From assembly GCF_008329525.1 (NCBI RefSeq), contig NZ_NPKQ01000005.1, positions 62,001 through 126,000 of the forward strand: DNA of 64,000 bases, in the 5' to 3' direction. This document shows positions 2,480 to 21,709 of this stretch, piece by piece. Each line of letters opens with the position of its first letter. The first letter of the stretch is position 1. The notes below the pieces were generated by a model that ran no database searches, was not told the origin of the DNA, and saw only the letters and a program-made list of their open reading frames with translations. Both the position numbers and the translations under genes were made by a program. This stretch comes from Tardiphaga sp. P9-11. Its GTDB lineage: Bacteria; Pseudomonadota; Alphaproteobacteria; Rhizobiales; Xanthobacteraceae.

Positions 2480-4180
2480 TCAGCGCGTGAAGAAACCGGA
2501 GGGGGCGGAGGCGGCGGGGCCGACATTGGCCGGTGGGCGCGGGCCGGGTGGCTGGGCCGGGCGGGGGCGCTGGGGCGCCTGCTGGACGGGCGCGCGCCGC
2601 GGCTCGTCGAACCCGAAGAAGCTACCGAAGGATGACGGCGTTTCGGTGGCGATGACGGGCTTCGGCTTTTTCTTCGGCGCGGCGGGTGGTGTCATCACGG
2701 GGACGATTCCATCCGGCCCTGTGGCCGCAGCAGTGCCTGAAGTGCCCGAGGTCGCTGGTGTGACGGCAGCGACAGGAACGTCGCCCTTGGCCTGTTCGCG
2801 GCCGATCTCGCGGCGCGGCCAGGCAAAATCATCGGCGCGGCCGGCGGGCGCTGAGAGCGGCTCGCCTTTCACCAGCACCCGCGCCACCAGCGCATCGACA
2901 TTCACCGGCTTCACGCCGGGGCCGCCGAGCAGTTGATCGGTGCCGACCGAGGAGGCGACCAATGGTACGATGGGTCCAGCCAGCGGACGCGGCGGCGGCG
3001 CGCCGGGCACGGCATTGAGGTCGGGCGTCGCTGGCTCGCTCGGCAGCGCGATCGGTGCGGAGCGGCCGGACAGCAGGCGGGTGATCTCGCGCTCGACGTA
3101 ATGCGCCATCTTGCGGGCGCCGGCCTTGGTGAAATAGACGCCGTCGGCGGAGCGCAGCCGGCGGATCTGGCCTTCGAAATCCGGGCCTTGCTGCAGGAAG
3201 CGGCCGGCTTCGTCGACGAAGCCGTCCCAGATATCGACATAGGTGATGCCGGCCTTGGTCGCGGCGTCGCGATAGAGATTGTCGAGATAGAGCATGTCGG
3301 CGGTCGCCTTGGTGCCGCGCACTGCCGGCAGGCCGACCCACAGCACGGGCACGCCCTTCGCCTTCACGACGTTGATCATCTCCTCGATCTTCTTCGAGTA
3401 CAGTTCGCCCCAGCGCTCGTCGCGGAAATCGACCATGCCGCCGGTGCGCGCGCCGCGCTCGACGACGATCGAGCCGGGATCGGGAATGTCTGCATCGTCC
3501 GCCTCGGGCTCCGCCGGCTTGTCACCGGGCTTCACCTCGGCCGCGCTGTCCTTCTTCTCGTCCTTTTTGGCGCCCTTCTTTTCGGCCGCCTTGTCGGGTT
3601 CGCGGATCGCGACACGGTCATTGAGGCCGAGCATGACGACGATCGCATCGGGCTTCTCGGTGGCGAGAATGCCCTTGGCCGCTGCCGCCCAGTCCGCGGG
3701 ATCGCCCTTCGGTTGATAGCGCAGCAGGCCGGAGACGGTCTTGTGTTTGCGGATCACGCCCATGTCGGGCTGTTCGGAATAGGCGTCCTCAAGGCCGTAA
3801 GCGAGCCAGTCGGCCATGCTGTCGCCGAGCACCAGCACATTGCGCTCGGCCGCGGCATCGCGTTTTTCCGGCGAGGGCGCGCGCGAATAGTCCTCACGCG
3901 GCGCGGCCCGCTTCGGCGCCTGCTGCTGCTGGAACGGCGCAAAAAACGGGGTGTCATTGCCGCCGCCGAACCAGCCGAAGCCGCCACCGCCGCCTTGCGG
4001 CACATTGCGTTGCGGACGCGGCGGAGGTTGCTGCGGACCGCCGAAACCAAAAAATTGCGCGGAGGCGGGAGCCACGATGCCGATCAGCAGGCCCAATGCC
4101 ACGGCGAGCACCATCAGCGTGCCCTTTTCGGCACGCCAGTGGTCGATCCGCCATCTCGGCAAGTTGGGCTTCTGTGACAT
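2480..4180 (-). CDS. DUF459 SGNH/GDSL-fold protein, secreted or membrane-anchored
   Basis: About 566 residues. After a basic N-terminus comes a hydrophobic segment ending ASAQF (signal peptide or anchor), then a Pro/Gln/Gly-rich linker, an SGNH-type domain and a long Pro/Ala-rich C-terminus. SGNH blocks are visible: LVLGDSMADWL (nucleophile Ser), a Gly-containing block II, and VVMLGLNDR (block III). In block V, DGVYFTKAG keeps the Asp, but the usual His of the DxxH pair is Tyr. A Lys/Glu-rich insertion (about 35 residues) follows block III. I chose the ATG at 4180 (GAGG close upstream); an open extension to 4252 lacks a ribosome-binding site. Family role: periplasmic esterase/acetylesterase acting on envelope polysaccharide or peptidoglycan. 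With the His replaced, activity is uncertain. Confidence 0.8.
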   Translation of the reverse strand: MSQKPNLPRWRIDHWRAEKGTLMVLAVALGLLIGIVAPASAQFFGFGGPQQPPPRPQRNVPQGGGGGFGWFGGGNDTPFFAPFQQQQAPKRAAPREDYSRAPSPEKRDAAAERNVLVLGDSMADWLAYGLEDAYSEQPDMGVIRKHKTVSGLLRYQPKGDPADWAAAAKGILATEKPDAIVVMLGLNDRVAIREPDKAAEKKGAKKDEKKDSAAEVKPGDKPAEPEADDADIPDPGSIVVERGARTGGMVDFRDERWGELYSKKIEEMINVVKAKGVPVLWVGLPAVRGTKATADMLYLDNLYRDAATKAGITYVDIWDGFVDEAGRFLQQGPDFEGQIRRLRSADGVYFTKAGARKMAHYVEREITRLLSGRSAPIALPSEPATPDLNAVPGAPPPRPLAGPIVPLVASSVGTDQLLGGPGVKPVNVDALVARVLVKGEPLSAPAGRADDFAWPRREIGREQAKGDVPVAAVTPATSGTSGTAAATGPDGIVPVMTPPAAPKKKPKPVIATETPSSFGSFFGFDEPRRAPVQQAPQRPRPAQPPGPRPPANVGPAASAPSGFFTR

Positions 4181-4413
4181 GCGCCTCGACCGCAATCGCT
4201 GGGTTCGCAGACCCGGGTTCCCGCTCGACATACTACCGGATTCGGGCCGCAAGCGGGCAGCCGCAATCCCGCCATCAAGCGCCGCCCGCCGTTAACGTCA
4301 AGCAAATCCCGGAACTTTTAGCGGCAGGGTGAACGGCGTCAGGCCGCAGCCAAGGCCTGTGCCGAACAAAGCGGCAATCCCGGAGTTGTCGTGATAAATC
4401 AGGGAGGTTTGCC

Positions 4414-4668
4414 ACGAAGTCACCGCTACTCGCCGTTGCGCTCGTTTTCGCGCTGCCCTCATGGGCTTCCGCAGATACCCCCGGCAAGGACTGGATGACC
4501 GCACAGCAGGTCACCGAAAAGCTGCACAGCCTCGGCTATACCGAGGTCAGGGAGCTCGAGGCCGACGATGGCCATTGGGAAGCCGATGTCGTGAAGGACG
4601 GCCGGACCTTCGAGGTCCATGTCGATCCGCATAGCGGTGCGCTCACCAAGAACGAACCCAAGCACTGA
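4414..4668 (+). CDS. Small secreted PepSY-domain protein, apparent ACG start
   Basis: An 84-codon frame running from an ACG codon to TGA. It reads as a clean signal peptide (Lys, then hydrophobic LLAVALVFALPSWASA, cleavage before DTPGKDW) followed by one PepSY-like unit: MTAQQVTEKLHSLGYTEV, a central DGHWEADVVKDGRTFEVHVD and a GALTKNEPKH tail. GGGAGG lies six bases before the ACG, an ideal spacing, and no in-frame ATG, GTG or TTG exists upstream. The first ordinary start (ATG at 4495) would remove the whole signal peptide. Either ACG is the real initiation codon or an ATG has mutated. PepSY units are usually periplasmic peptidase-inhibitor or metal-related sensor domains; the function here is unknown. 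Confidence 0.7.
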   Translation, partial: TKSPLLAVALVFALPSWASADTPGKDWMTAQQVTEKLHSLGYTEVRELEADDGHWEADVVKDGRTFEVHVDPHSGALTKNEPKH

Positions 4669-4683
4669 CGCCGGCAGACTCGT

Positions 4684-5064
4684 CTATTTCCAGAGCCCCA
4701 AGGACTGCCATTTGGCCTGCGGAATCGCCGCGCCCGTCTTGTAGGTGAAATCCAGCACCGTCTTGTGGTCCGGCGTCGCCTTGCAGGTGAAGGCGACCTG
4801 CATCCATTTGCCGCCTGCGCGATAGGCGCCGCCCTTGGCGATCATCGTATTGCCGAGATGCTGCGGCGGCATCAGCGCGTCGGATTTGGCGCGCTCGACG
4901 CGCGGGCCACCTTTGCTGATCCGGCGCATCGCCTCGAAGTCGCAGACCTGCTCCAGTCGGGTCTTGGGATCGAGCTTGCCGAGGGCCGCCATGAAGCGGG
5001 CATCGCTGGCATGGGCCTGCGGGACAAGCGCCACGAGGCCGAGCGGAAGAAGCAGGAATTTCAT
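4684..5064 (-). CDS. DUF930 domain-containing secreted protein
   Basis: A 126-residue protein with a short signal peptide (KFLLLPLGLVALVPQAHA, cleavage near residue 19). The DUF930 hallmark follows: LDPKTRLEQVCDFEAMRRI, then a basic AKSDAL segment, and a second Cys in FTCKATPDH, so one periplasmic disulfide is plausible. It converges with the PepSY gene, with only 15 bp between the stops. There is no strong ribosome-binding site before the ATG at 5064. About 560 bp upstream on the same strand lies a strong sigma-70 promoter and a hairpin-rich region (5259-5627) that could be its leader. Function unknown; DUF930 proteins are typical of Rhizobiales. Confidence 0.8.
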   Translation of the reverse strand: MKFLLLPLGLVALVPQAHASDARFMAALGKLDPKTRLEQVCDFEAMRRISKGGPRVERAKSDALMPPQHLGNTMIAKGGAYRAGGKWMQVAFTCKATPDHKTVLDFTYKTGAAIPQAKWQSLGLWK

Positions 5065-5258
5065 GCGGGAAGGGACAACACGTTTGGAAGGTAAGAGATC
5101 GGCGGGATGATACCGCTTAGCGTGTCCGGAGGTTGCTGGCTACCCACTCTGGGATGCGCTGCGCGGCCGGTCGCGCTGTGCGAGTCCCGGTCATGAATGG
5201 GTGCGACGCGCGCACGCGCCGTCTGTCCCGCGCCGCCGCGCAGGTTGGCCTTCCGGTG
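5065..5258. other. Gap between DUF930 start and the structured RNA
   Basis: No gene, terminator or clear promoter seen. The minus strand reads continuously from the structured region to the DUF930 start codon without a U-rich terminator, which leaves open a leader role for the RNA. Open frames through here are GC-rich shadows with Arg/Ala-rich translations. Confidence 0.4.
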
Positions 5259-5627
5259 ATCCCCCGCCTGAAGTGAGGGGGATAGAGCGCCGAAAGGCGC
5301 AACATTGTAGTTCGTAGCGCGTCCCGTTGGCTGCCTGCGACAGCGACCTTCGGTGCGCGCACGCCTTTCGGCGCTCCATCGCGGCGATTTCTGTCCAGAG
5401 GACCGTTCTTCCGGGCAAAGGCACGAACCCGCAGGTTCGTCATCCCGACGGTTTCCCGCCGTTCGCCAGTGCCACGTCCAGCCGCACGCTAGCGGCAGAG
5501 CCCCGTAGTGGGCCCGGACGGTGACCCCTGACCTCCCGAGTCCGTGCTTGCGAGGCACGTCCGCGGGCGCCGCACCCTGTCCCACCTCCAAAGACGCCCT
5601 CGAGAAGCGCCCCTCGTTGGACAGGGT
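5259..5627 (-). ncRNA. Candidate structured RNA behind a strong sigma-70 promoter
   Basis: No convincing protein is encoded here, but the minus strand folds densely. Paired elements (plus-strand coordinates) are: 5619-5627 with 5574-5582 (9 bp, starting at the predicted first transcribed base); 5543-5547 with 5555-5559; a three-way junction, CGTCC/GGACG at 5475-5479 and 5516-5520, enclosing hairpins 5481-5496 and 5500-5513; 5446-5461 with a GAAA loop on the transcript; 5423-5440 (7 bp); 5285-5299 with 5362-5376 (15 bp perfect); and 5259-5265 with 5277-5283. RNase P and tmRNA signature sequences are absent. It could be a free RNA or a long leader of the DUF930 gene. No U-tract terminator was found, so the 3' end is approximate. 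Confidence 0.5.
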
Positions 5628-5633
5628 TAGGAG

Positions 5634-5662
5634 AATATAAGCCTAGTTCGATGGGGTGTCAA
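5634..5662 (-). promoter_or_regulatory. Near-consensus sigma-70 promoter
   Basis: On the minus strand TTGACA (5662-5657), a 17-base spacer, then TATATT (5639-5634). This is one substitution from the ideal -35/-10 pair. The expected start site is about base 5627, exactly where the first long helix of the candidate RNA begins. No start codon with a ribosome-binding site lies close downstream. Confidence 0.7.
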
Positions 5663-5712
5663 TCAGGGTGTTGAGATTGGATTGCTTTGCTCAGCGCGCT
5701 TGGGCCCCCCGG

Positions 5713-5745
5713 ACCCCACTCCGCTGTGCTTGAGGGAGGGAGAAG
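5713..5745 (-). repeat. Degenerate copy of a palindromic intergenic repeat
   Basis: CCCCACT followed by GCTGTGCTTGAGGGAGGGAGAAG resembles the reverse complement of the repeat at 5866-5918, with part of the centre missing. It lies between the sigma-70 promoter at 5634 and the DUF559 cassette. Confidence 0.45.
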
Positions 5746-5865
5746 AAGGTGCGCCAAATTAAGCGACCTTTCATTCGATGGGATCGGTGCAACGTCGATA
5801 AAAGTCATGTGAGACAACTACACTTTCTGATCCTTGCGGACTTCGCTAGAACATGTCGCCGGGTG

Positions 5866-5918
5866 CTTTCTTATCCCTCCCTCAAGCGCAGCGAAGCTGC
5901 GCGCAGTGGGGAGGGTGG
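5866..5918 (+). repeat. Palindromic repeat, left copy flanking DUF559
   Basis: Begins CTTTCTTATCCCTCCC (5866-5881), has the self-complementary core GCAGCGAAGCTGCGCGC (5888-5904) and ends GTGGGGAGGGTGG (5906-5918). The outer 16 bases are a perfect inverted match to 6357-6372, and the inner 13 bases to 6340-6352. The core recurs with one mismatch at 47393-47409. Confidence 0.75.
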
Positions 5919-5980
5919 CGCGGTGCGAGCGTTCAGCGAGCAACGTGACGGGTGGGGTGTTGCAACAAAGCGAGAACTGC

Positions 5981-6367
5981 GTGGCCAATTCGTTCGCGCG
6001 TGCACTCCGGAAAAACCTGACGCCGCAGGAGGTCAGGCTGTGGGTGAAGCTGCGCGAGCTGAAGCCGCTTGGCTTTCACTTTCGACGGCAGGCTCCGATC
6101 AAGCACATCATCGTGGACTTCGTGTCGTTTCGTGAGTGTCTGGTTATCGAAGTCGATGGCGGGCAGCATAATTTCGATGAGGCGGTGCGTCGGGATGAAG
6201 CGCGGGATGCGTTCTTGGGCGGCGAGGGATTTCGCGTGATGCGGTTCTGGAATTTCGAGGTGGATCGGAATCTAGACGGCGTGATGGAGTCGATAGTCGG
6301 AGCTCTGGGCTACCCCCACCCGGCCGGCCTTACGGCCGTCCACCCTCCCCACAAGGGGGAGGGATAA
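5981..6367 (+). CDS. DUF559 endonuclease-fold protein
   Basis: About 128 residues from a GTG at 5981: VANSFARALRKNLTPQEVRL opens the DUF559 domain. RQAPIKHIIVDFVSFRECLVIEVDGGQH supplies the characteristic D...E-x-D active-site strand of the PD-(D/E)xK/Vsr-like fold, and GFRVMRFWNFEV ends the domain. Function is unproven; the family is related to very-short-patch-repair endonucleases. The open frame extends upstream to 5834, but that part runs through a palindromic repeat and is unlike the family. The last 18 or so residues (after IVGALGYPH) and the stop codon are encoded by the right-hand repeat. Inverted repeat copies on both sides suggest that it arrived or moves as a cassette. Confidence 0.75.
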   Translation: MANSFARALRKNLTPQEVRLWVKLRELKPLGFHFRRQAPIKHIIVDFVSFRECLVIEVDGGQHNFDEAVRRDEARDAFLGGEGFRVMRFWNFEVDRNLDGVMESIVGALGYPHPAGLTAVHPPHKGEG

Positions 6368-6372
6368 GAAAG
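6340..6372 (-). repeat. Palindromic repeat, right copy flanking DUF559
   Basis: CCACCCTCCCCAC (6340-6352) and GGGAGGGATAAGAAAG (6357-6372) are the exact reverse complements of the two arms of the left copy at 5866-5918. Here the two arms are separated by 4 bases instead of 24. The DUF559 stop codon lies inside this copy. Confidence 0.75.
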
Positions 6373-6398
6373 GAGCCCCGACACTTTCGTGTCGAGGC
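6371..6398 (-). terminator. Rho-independent terminator of gltBD
   Basis: On the minus strand GCCTCGACAC, a GAAA loop, then GTGTCGGGGC form a 10-bp stem with one U-G wobble, followed by TCCTTTCTT. It lies about 50 bp after the gltD stop and overlaps the edge of the repeat at 6340-6372. Confidence 0.8.
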
Positions 6399-6445
6399 CC
6401 TTGAAGATCGAAAACGCTAGAAACTTGGACTCAAACAGCCCGCTC

Positions 6446-7903
6446 TTACCTCGGCAGCGTCGTGGTCCCCATCAGCGCCTGATCGATGGCGCGGGCGCAC
6501 AACCGGCCTTCGCGGATCGCCCAGACCACCAACGACTGGCCACGGCGCATGTCGCCGGCGGAGTACACTTTCGGCAGCGAGGTCGCGAAGTCGGTCGTTG
6601 GGGCGCGGACGTTGCCACGCTGGTCGAGTTCGACGCCGAGGGTCTTCAGCATGCCTTCGTGGACCGGATGGACGAAGCCCATCGCCAGCAGAACGAGATC
6701 GGCCTGCAGCGAGAACTCGCTGCCGGGGATCGGCTTGAACTTGTCGTCGACCTGCACGCAGTTCAGCTTGGTGACCTTGCCGTCGGCGCCTTCGAAGCTC
6801 TGGGTCAGCACGGCGAATTCGCGCTTGGCGCCTTCGGCCTGGCTCGACGAGGTCCGCATCTTCAGCGGCCAGTTCGGCCAGGTCAGGCCCTTGTTCTCCT
6901 GCTCGGGCGGAGCCGGCATGATTTCGAGCTGGGTCACCGACAGCGCGCCCTGACGCAGCGAGGTGCCGATGCAATCGGAGCCGGTGTCGCCGCCGCCAAT
7001 GACGACGACATGCTTGCCGCCGGCCAGGATCTCCTTGACGTCGCCGAGCGGCTCGTTGCCGACGCGACGGTTTTGTTGCGGCAGGAAGTCCATCGCGAAA
7101 TGGATGCCATCGAATTCGCGGCCGGGGATCGGCAGGTCGCGACCGTGCTCGGCGCCGCCGGTCAGCGCGATGGCTTCATAGTCCTTCAGCAGTTCGGCGG
7201 GATCGATCGCGCCGGGGGAGGTGCCGCCGACGGCCTTGCCATAATGGAAGGTGACGCCTTCGCCTTCCATCTGCGCGACGCGCCGGTCGATGACGTGCTT
7301 CTCCATCTTGAAGTCGGGAATGCCGTAACGCATCAAGCCGCCGGCCTTGGCGAATTTCTCATAGACATGGACGTCGTGTCCGGCGCGCGCGAGCTGCTGC
7401 GCGCAGGCCATGCCGGCCGGGCCGGCGCCGATCACGGCGACCTTGCGGCCGGTCTTCACGGCGGAGACTTGCGGCTTCAGCCAGCCATTGTCCCATGCCT
7501 TGTCGACGATGGCGCACTCGATGGTCTTGATGGTGACCGGGTTGTCATCGATGTTCAGCGTGCATGAGGCTTCGCACGGCGCCGGGCAGATGCGGCCGGT
7601 GAATTCCGGGAAGTTGTTGGTGGAGTGCAGGTTGCGCGAGGCTTCTTCCCAGTTGCCGGTATAGACGAGGTCGTTCCAGTCCGGGATCTGGTTGTTGACC
7701 GGGCAGCCGGGCGTGCCGGGCTGAACCGAGCCGGTGCCGTGGCAATAGGGAATGCCGCAATTCATGCAGCGCGCGGCCTGGTCGCGGGTGTCTTTCTCGC
7801 TGAGCGGAATGACGAACTCGTTATAGCCCTTCAAACGCTCGGTAACCGGCGTGTACTTGCGGTCGTGACGATCGATTTCCAGAAAACCCGTGATCTTGCC
7901 CAT
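6446..7903 (-). CDS. gltD: Glutamate synthase (NADPH), small subunit
   Basis: A 485-residue beta subunit that moves electrons from NADPH through FAD and Fe-S clusters to GltB. The N-terminal cluster-binding Cys residues are 46, 49, 54 and 67 (in [11 protein letters not shown] and beyond) plus 106, 110 and 114. The FAD motif is GAGPAG at about 159-164, and the NADPH Rossmann motif is [12 protein letters not shown] near residue 300. The C-terminal [18 protein letters not shown] is the standard FAD-contact segment. The start at 7903 gives the usual [12 protein letters not shown]; an open extension to 7939 is unlikely. It follows gltB after about 130 bp on the same strand and shares its promoter and terminator. 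Confidence 0.97.
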
Positions 7904-15255: not shown

Positions 15256-15359
15256 CGTAGTGCCCTTTCGTTTCTGGTCATTAGATGGGCGTGTTAGAGC
15301 TTGCAGGAAATCGACAAGGCTGCACGGCCTCCAAACAGAATTGAACGAGCGATCGTGTG

Positions 15360-21449: not shown

Positions 21450-21536
21450 GTGCGGTAGCGCTTGCGCTATCGCTGCCCTCCTTGGGCGTTTCCTCCCTAG
21501 ACTTGGGCCGCTTGCTATCGCAAGCGGCCCTTTTTT
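21450..21536 (+). ncRNA. Candidate trans-acting small RNA with CCUCC motifs
   Basis: About 87 nt between a sigma-70-type promoter and a textbook terminator, with no open frame. The 5' hairpin is GCGGTAGC/GCTATCGC (21452-21473). Next comes CCCTCCTTGGG, a small loop presenting UCCUU, then an unpaired TTCCTCCCTAG, then the terminator stem. Exposed CCUCC motifs can pair with Shine-Dalgarno sequences; this layout resembles the rhizobial AbcR/alpha-r15 and other anti-SD small RNAs that silence transporter mRNAs through Hfq. Family membership is inference from layout. Confidence 0.55.
21505..21536 (+). terminator. Rho-independent terminator of the candidate small RNA
   Basis: GGGCCGCTTGC, loop TATC, GCAAGCGGCCC: a perfect 11-bp stem followed by TTTTTT. 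It is one of the strongest terminators in the window, yet no protein gene ends before it on this strand. Confidence 0.85.
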
Positions 21537-21709
21537 CTTGTCCGAGGAGTTTTGCATCAAGCGGGCCGACGTGGTCGCTGGCGATTGTCTTGTGTCGCCT
21601 GGCCTGTTCGTCGTCTGGCACCCCGACAGCCTCGGGCCCATTGCGACGTCAGTCATCAAGCAAGACTTAGTCGGCTGAGAACCTCAAGCCGCTGTCCACG
21701 TCGTGGAGG

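Follow-up and report, generated by a model that had tools for sequence, protein, structure and literature searches.

Multicopy genes for a structured RNA, scattered through the genomes of Tardiphaga and its relatives, with an rRNA-type boxA on about half of the copies examined

By sequence comparison, the region under study in the window (the whole 64-kb stretch of DNA that was analysed) is a member of family A, as we call a multicopy set of dispersed structured-RNA genes of about 410–430 nt. On the same grounds its members are stand-alone, non-coding and highly structured RNA genes, most of them with a promoter-like sequence at their start.

The copy in the window

A preliminary description of this DNA had placed a promoter-like TTGACA-17-TATATT at 5662–5634 of the minus strand, and we find it at exactly those coordinates; it is the sole promoter-like site found in 4000–7500 (shuffles average 0.4) and the only site of at least 11/12 within the 64-kb window. 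That description had also proposed an unannotated structured RNA of about 370 nt. The predicted RNA, its approximate size and the good promoter match stand, but the 3′ side reaches further than was thought. The 3′ end can be placed approximately, between about 5213 and 5187, as the family profile aligns to window positions 5635–5213 and the DNA in common with an RNA-free strain (NFR13, G017) restarts near 5186. The features of this copy are as follows.

5634..5662, minus strand: promoter-like TTGACA-17-TATATT, 11/12 match
A5628/A5627, minus strand: predicted RNA start, placed from the promoter-like sequence
5187..5628, minus strand: predicted structured RNA gene, family A copy (profile alignment, shared flank, covariation over 77 copies)
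5574..5627, minus strand: predicted 5′ hairpin domain, P1 (fold and covariation helices 1–3)
5381..5573, minus strand: predicted central multibranched domain, including the three-way junction 5475–5520 (fold and covariation helices 4–12)
5281..5380, minus strand: predicted long hairpin with a 20-bp helix, 5361–5380/5281–5300 (fold, complementarity and covariation helices 13–15)
5261..5279, minus strand: predicted short 3′ hairpin (fold and helix 16, the latter weaker, with 1/4 pairs changed on both sides)

The minimum-energy fold of the window RNA has a free energy of −202.9 kcal/mol, compared with −170.0 (sd 5.3) for 100 dinucleotide shuffles (z −6.2). Two structures proposed earlier, a 9-bp helix that begins at the first base (5627–5619 with 5582–5574) and the three-way junction at 5475–5520, are both present in this fold; a third, the 15-bp helix of 5285–5299 with 5362–5376, is exactly complementary and forms part of the 20-bp helix listed above. 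As had also been reported, no protein with a family match is readable here: the longest frame that overlaps the region (176 aa) has no Pfam match.

Downstream of the window RNA, on the same strand, lies a DUF930 gene, and upstream lie a DUF559 gene and an oxidoreductase gene that we read from its domains as gltD. The DUF559 (endonuclease-like) gene occupies window positions 5981–6367, between the oxidoreductase gene and the RNA, and the gap at 5640–6446 is hypervariable, with different DNA in other genomes.

Size and range of the family

The preliminary description suspected that the RNA occurs in related genomes, and homologues are present in all 18 of the 18 genomes of the same genus, with 2 to 23 BLAST matches each, where one copy can yield several matches. 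In the window's own genome (G000) there are 11 BLAST matches, which we read as nine loci, and a tenth place, G000:C2, brings the number to about ten copies. Within the same family at least 78 of 149 genomes and at least 32 of 47 genera match by BLAST; four candidates per genome were scored, so these counts are lower bounds. Rhodopseudomonas records also carry a 27-base core motif, which is found in 14 stretches in total.

In the order, a covariance model of the 5′ domain detects the family in at least 20 of 397 genomes, spread over 15 of 141 genera. Seventeen of these 20 genomes belong to eight other families, four of these reaching E 2e-8 or better. Nine such distant loci were compared with the family profile: four can be aligned to most of its length and the other five to part of it. 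In the class as a whole the window's own genome is the only one among 385 to match (0/384 others), an absence that is weak since in the class and order searches strict filters were applied and about eight candidates were scored for each genome. Among plasmid and phage records, a set from which those nearest the window's genome were possibly left out, there was no match at E 1e-5, and a plasmid or phage element was rejected on that result.

A chosen part of the genus and family matches listed, 123 loci, less four duplicates (L037–L040), gave the 119 copies on which the following comparisons are based.

Covariation supports a common fold

The covariation analysis that had been proposed for this region gave a strongly positive result. 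From 78 representatives picked by k-mer similarity, one was dropped because it is cut by a contig end, and the remaining 77 diverse copies were aligned with MAFFT; a consensus fold was derived, in which the stem that closes the three-way junction was placed by hand. Changes on both sides are seen in 70 of 112 pairs. Double-change cells number 825, compared with 289 (sd 17) after shuffling, a comparison that is inflated by the relatedness of the copies, and with 127–252 when the structure is slid. Paired cells amount to 90.3%, versus 80.9% shuffled and 42–48% slid, a measure on which the structure is favoured, having been taken from the same alignment on which it was tested. Within this alignment the double-change counts are the stronger evidence for the fold. 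Pairs with a Watson-Crick consensus contain 612 G-U and 159 A-C cells, and this G-U excess identifies the strand read here as that of the RNA.

The stem drawn as closing the three-way junction is provisional: it is nearly invariant (one of its five pairs shows a double change), and some of its bases could be used instead by another long-range pairing. Pairing is least regular in helices 14–16, where 68–82% of cells are paired.

The copies as stand-alone genes

A promoter-like sequence (≥9/12) stands at the RNA start in 99 of the 114 copies (of 119) that have at least 400 nt of upstream DNA, and in 0 of 114 control stretches 300 nt further up. Of the 119 copies, 55 are followed by a gene on their own strand, 63 by one on the opposite strand and 1 by none, and homologous copies precede unrelated genes on either strand. 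Hexamer scores give no coding signal inside any of the 119 copies; together with the lack of a Pfam match for the longest frame, this led us to reject a protein-coding region. Flanks of 1.5–2.5 kb at 96 of the 119 loci contain no protein family that recurs beside the copies of a genome, save one three-member cluster, and an RNA linked to an enzyme, whether a guide or a transposon RNA, was rejected for that reason.

The mixed orientation of the next gene bears on the other possibility raised in the preliminary description, that the RNA is a long leader belonging to the DUF930 gene. In strain NFR13 (G017) the DUF930 region is present and the RNA is absent, and because of these two observations we conclude that it is not a DUF930 leader.

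A boxA of the rRNA type at the 3′ end, and a second family

The sequence GGCTGTTTGA, the 10-base core of the boxA found in the rRNA leaders of these genomes, occurs 300–640 nt after the start in 57 of the 119 copies, 36 of which have the full 12-mer GGCTGTTTGACA. Core matches in the interval +300 to +640 of the copies are 58 in sense and 0 in antisense orientation, while the rest of the 497 kb has one of each. The same 12-mer is present in the 16S leader of the window's own genome and in those of G001, G002, G015 and G016 (258–281 nt upstream of 16S), and the G007 leader has a one-base variant of it. The downstream gene of the 57 boxA-tailed copies is on the same strand in 21 cases and on the opposite strand in 36, so that read-through from a tailed copy would more often be antisense to it.

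Across eight genomes, with one or two rrn operons where counted, the 12-mer has 101 sites compared with 9 for a reversed control. Thirty loci from this search comprise 5 rRNA leaders (by sequence), 11 family A copies and 14 members of a second family, B, with none left over. In 61 genomes of the same family the corresponding figures are 138 and 26, and 20 loci inspected from that search are 5 rRNA leaders, 8 family A copies (two of them weak), 1 weak and partial family B match and 6 that are neither.

Family B is a second multicopy RNA family with a 515-nt core, the same boxA tail and a promoter of the TTGACA type. In the window's genome eight copies (L124–L131) carry the tail at their end, and there are 14 further loci among L138–L167. 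By eye the two families have promoter, 5′ hairpin and tail in common. At the expected place the family A 5′ model gives 8.8–15.4 bits (E 0.057–2) for seven of eight family B loci, but scores at other places go up to 17.1 bits (window position 15351) and 16.2 bits (a second place in L129), and these scores are therefore no evidence for homology of A and B. Four loci in G001 and G002 (L153, L159, L160 and L165) resemble family B along the greater part of its sequence, and the first three, not L165, also weakly match the 3′ end of family A, as if modules had been exchanged.

BoxA is not essential to family A, since the core is absent from 62 of the 119 copies, including the window copy (best match 8/12), and from the nine distant loci of other families, the best of which has 4 mismatches. 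In E. coli, boxA binds NusB-S10, according to PMC5725501; by analogy, NusB-S10 might bind the boxA tails of the present RNAs.

LexA-type boxes at some promoters

The pattern GTTC-N7-GTTC, which we take to be the alphaproteobacterial LexA site, directly precedes the −35 hexamer (positions −48 to −50) in 18 of the 117 copies (of 119) covered, these 18 being relatives and not independent events. They come from G001, G002, G009 and G014, and G002 alone, with 13 copies taken, accounts for 11 of the 18. Promoters (9.4 kb) have 18 occurrences, compared with one in 103 kb of upstream and four in 112 kb of downstream DNA, and all four genomes tested have such a box in front of lexA. The promoter of the window copy has no such box.

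Dynamics of the copies

Within one genome, copies that stand in unrelated surroundings can be as much as 99.6% identical. In several pairs the stretch in common extends from about −50 to +409..+463, and in other pairs it begins at about +1. Many sites are common to five Tardiphaga genomes (G000, G003, G004, G015 and G017), with fast-changing DNA adjoining them. At the window's site, the oxidoreductase and DUF930 genes of NFR13 (G017) are about 75 nt apart, compared with 1.25–1.4 kb including the RNA in G000, G003 and G015; those 75 nt are of different sequence, and the adjoining DNA differs too. In G002, copy L116 joins two flanks, each of which has a copy of its own in G001, G005, G006, G009 and G014, and because the breakpoint of this rearrangement falls within L116, copies act as points of recombination or rearrangement. 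These dynamics are accounted for about equally well by mobility and by gene conversion, together with gain and loss, among old loci.

Comparison with known RNAs

The search against Rfam that had been proposed earlier showed no family covering the region. At gathering scores Rfam 15 matches the window at suhB and one tRNA, both elsewhere, and searched up to E 10 the region itself has no credible match, the best being an insect flavivirus element (E 0.2; 18.7 bits against a cut-off of 50). Neither eight family B loci nor 17 further loci match an Rfam family, and a known Rfam RNA was therefore rejected. ARAGORN finds no tRNA or tmRNA at the locus, and two tRNAs elsewhere in the window. The suhB match, at window positions 21468–21545, is to RF00519 (suhB/mmgR sRNA), with 73.7 bits. 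A search of the open-licence literature found no paper on family A.

The nearest counterparts differ from family A in several respects. The large ornate bacterial RNAs OLE, ROOL and GOLLD, described in PMC12286853 as long, structured and non-coding with unresolved function, resemble it in length, high structure and lack of coding, whereas family A has many dispersed copies per chromosome, a promoter-like start on nearly all of them, an rRNA-type boxA on about half of the copies examined, and no Rfam match. With rRNA operon leaders, as PMC10250234 and PMC5725501 present them, it has the identical 12-mer GGCTGTTTGACA in the same genomes, but there boxA precedes 16S, and in family A it is found at the 3′ end and is not followed by rRNA. 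The E. coli suhB mRNA likewise carries a boxA outside rRNA operons, which according to PMC5725501 lies in the 5′ UTR and controls suhB, whereas the gene downstream of family A may be on either strand. Finally, PMC5082802 reports repeated intergenic RNAs or palindromic DNA (BjsR5-7, BjsR10 and Br-REP1/2) from a related genus, in Bradyrhizobium japonicum; from BjsR5-7 and BjsR10 (2–4 copies, sized against 60–160 nt markers) and from the short palindromes Br-REP1/2 family A is set apart by their description there. A boxA identical to that of the genome's own 16S leader is found on the tailed copies (36 with the full 12-mer, 57 with the core) and not on the window copy. Judged by its sequences, family A fits the definition of neither large ornate RNAs nor rRNA leaders.

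Possible functions

Our best explanation, which on the whole we find probable, is that family A encodes a structured RNA that acts in trans, is loaded with Nus factors where boxA is present, and is damage-inducible in the copies with LexA-type boxes. Every copy would be transcribed as a free RNA and act through its conserved fold, alone or with a protein. On tailed copies NusB-S10 and the remaining Nus complex would bind the tail as on pre-rRNA, and the bound complex might control the 3′ end, folding or read-through of the RNA, or tie its output to rRNA synthesis; against such a role, a terminal boxA can affect only sequence that is transcribed after it. LexA boxes at the promoters in one group of Tardiphaga genomes would allow DNA damage to induce many copies there. 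Since the window copy lacks both boxA and LexA box, only the stand-alone structured-RNA part of this explanation applies to it.

A different reading of the same loci, rather unlikely in our judgement, is a selfish, non-autonomous repeat in which a unit of promoter and RNA is spread by enzymes acting in trans and the fold is kept for spreading and not for the host. The near-identical copies with unrelated flanks, which also count against a host RNA, fit such a mobile repeat, as do the unit from about −50 to +409..+463 in several pairs, the 2 to 23 matches per genome of the genus, the empty oxidoreductase–DUF930 site of G017 and the copies at genome rearrangement points. However, many sites are common to five Tardiphaga genomes; gene conversion among old loci would also account for the identity, and some shared parts start at about +1; the neighbouring proteins do not recur, apart from the three-member cluster (96/119 loci); the plasmid and phage records covered gave no match; and neither terminal repeats nor target-site duplications were established. 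Because promoters are kept, sites are shared and no protein is linked, we hold a trans-acting RNA that serves the host to be modestly likelier than a selfish repeat. The tailed copies could instead be mainly decoys that titrate NusB-S10 and so lower rRNA synthesis, for example in stress. Their tail is that of the rrn boxA and outnumbers it (101 sites in the eight genomes with one or two rrn operons where counted), yet the core is missing from 62 of the 119 copies and a decoy does not need a conserved fold of 400 nt, which makes this improbable.

Control of the next gene by a 5′ leader would suit the same-strand DUF930 gene here and is very improbable, since across the 119 copies the gene that follows is randomly oriented and G017 retains the DUF930 region without the RNA. 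Dispersed, GC-rich, hairpin-rich intergenic DNA might also be a repeat that works at the DNA level, like the REP elements that PMC5082802 describes in Bradyrhizobium, with no functional RNA; long-range covariation in 16 helices, the G-U excess on one strand, a promoter-like start at a fixed place and a tail on one strand only leave this hardly any probability.

An RNA with a conserved fold, with about ten copies in the window's genome and presence in other families of the order, would represent a large and so far undescribed class of RNA genes among bacteria that live in soil or with plants. A boxA that ends non-coding RNAs makes it testable whether Nus factors act beyond rRNA and a few mRNAs in Alphaproteobacteria, and the LexA-type boxes point to DNA damage as the first condition in which to look for expression. 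We consider unlikely the wider idea of a chromosome-wide set of Nus-loading RNAs, made up of families A and B with the rRNA boxA as their 3′ module and in part SOS-controlled, through which ribosome synthesis would be tied to stress; if true, this set would be a new RNA-based layer of growth control.

Other sequences near the promoters

Two further sequences were seen by eye upstream of the copies. Loci L041, L042, L049, L053 and L190, which are from other genera, have no TTGACA and show a recurring ATCCCC-N(8-10)-AACCTC before TATxxT, perhaps another type of promoter or operator. In the window's own genome, a T-rich box like ACATTTTTTCCTA lies just before the −35 hexamer in members of both families A and B (L034, L064 and L124–L131).
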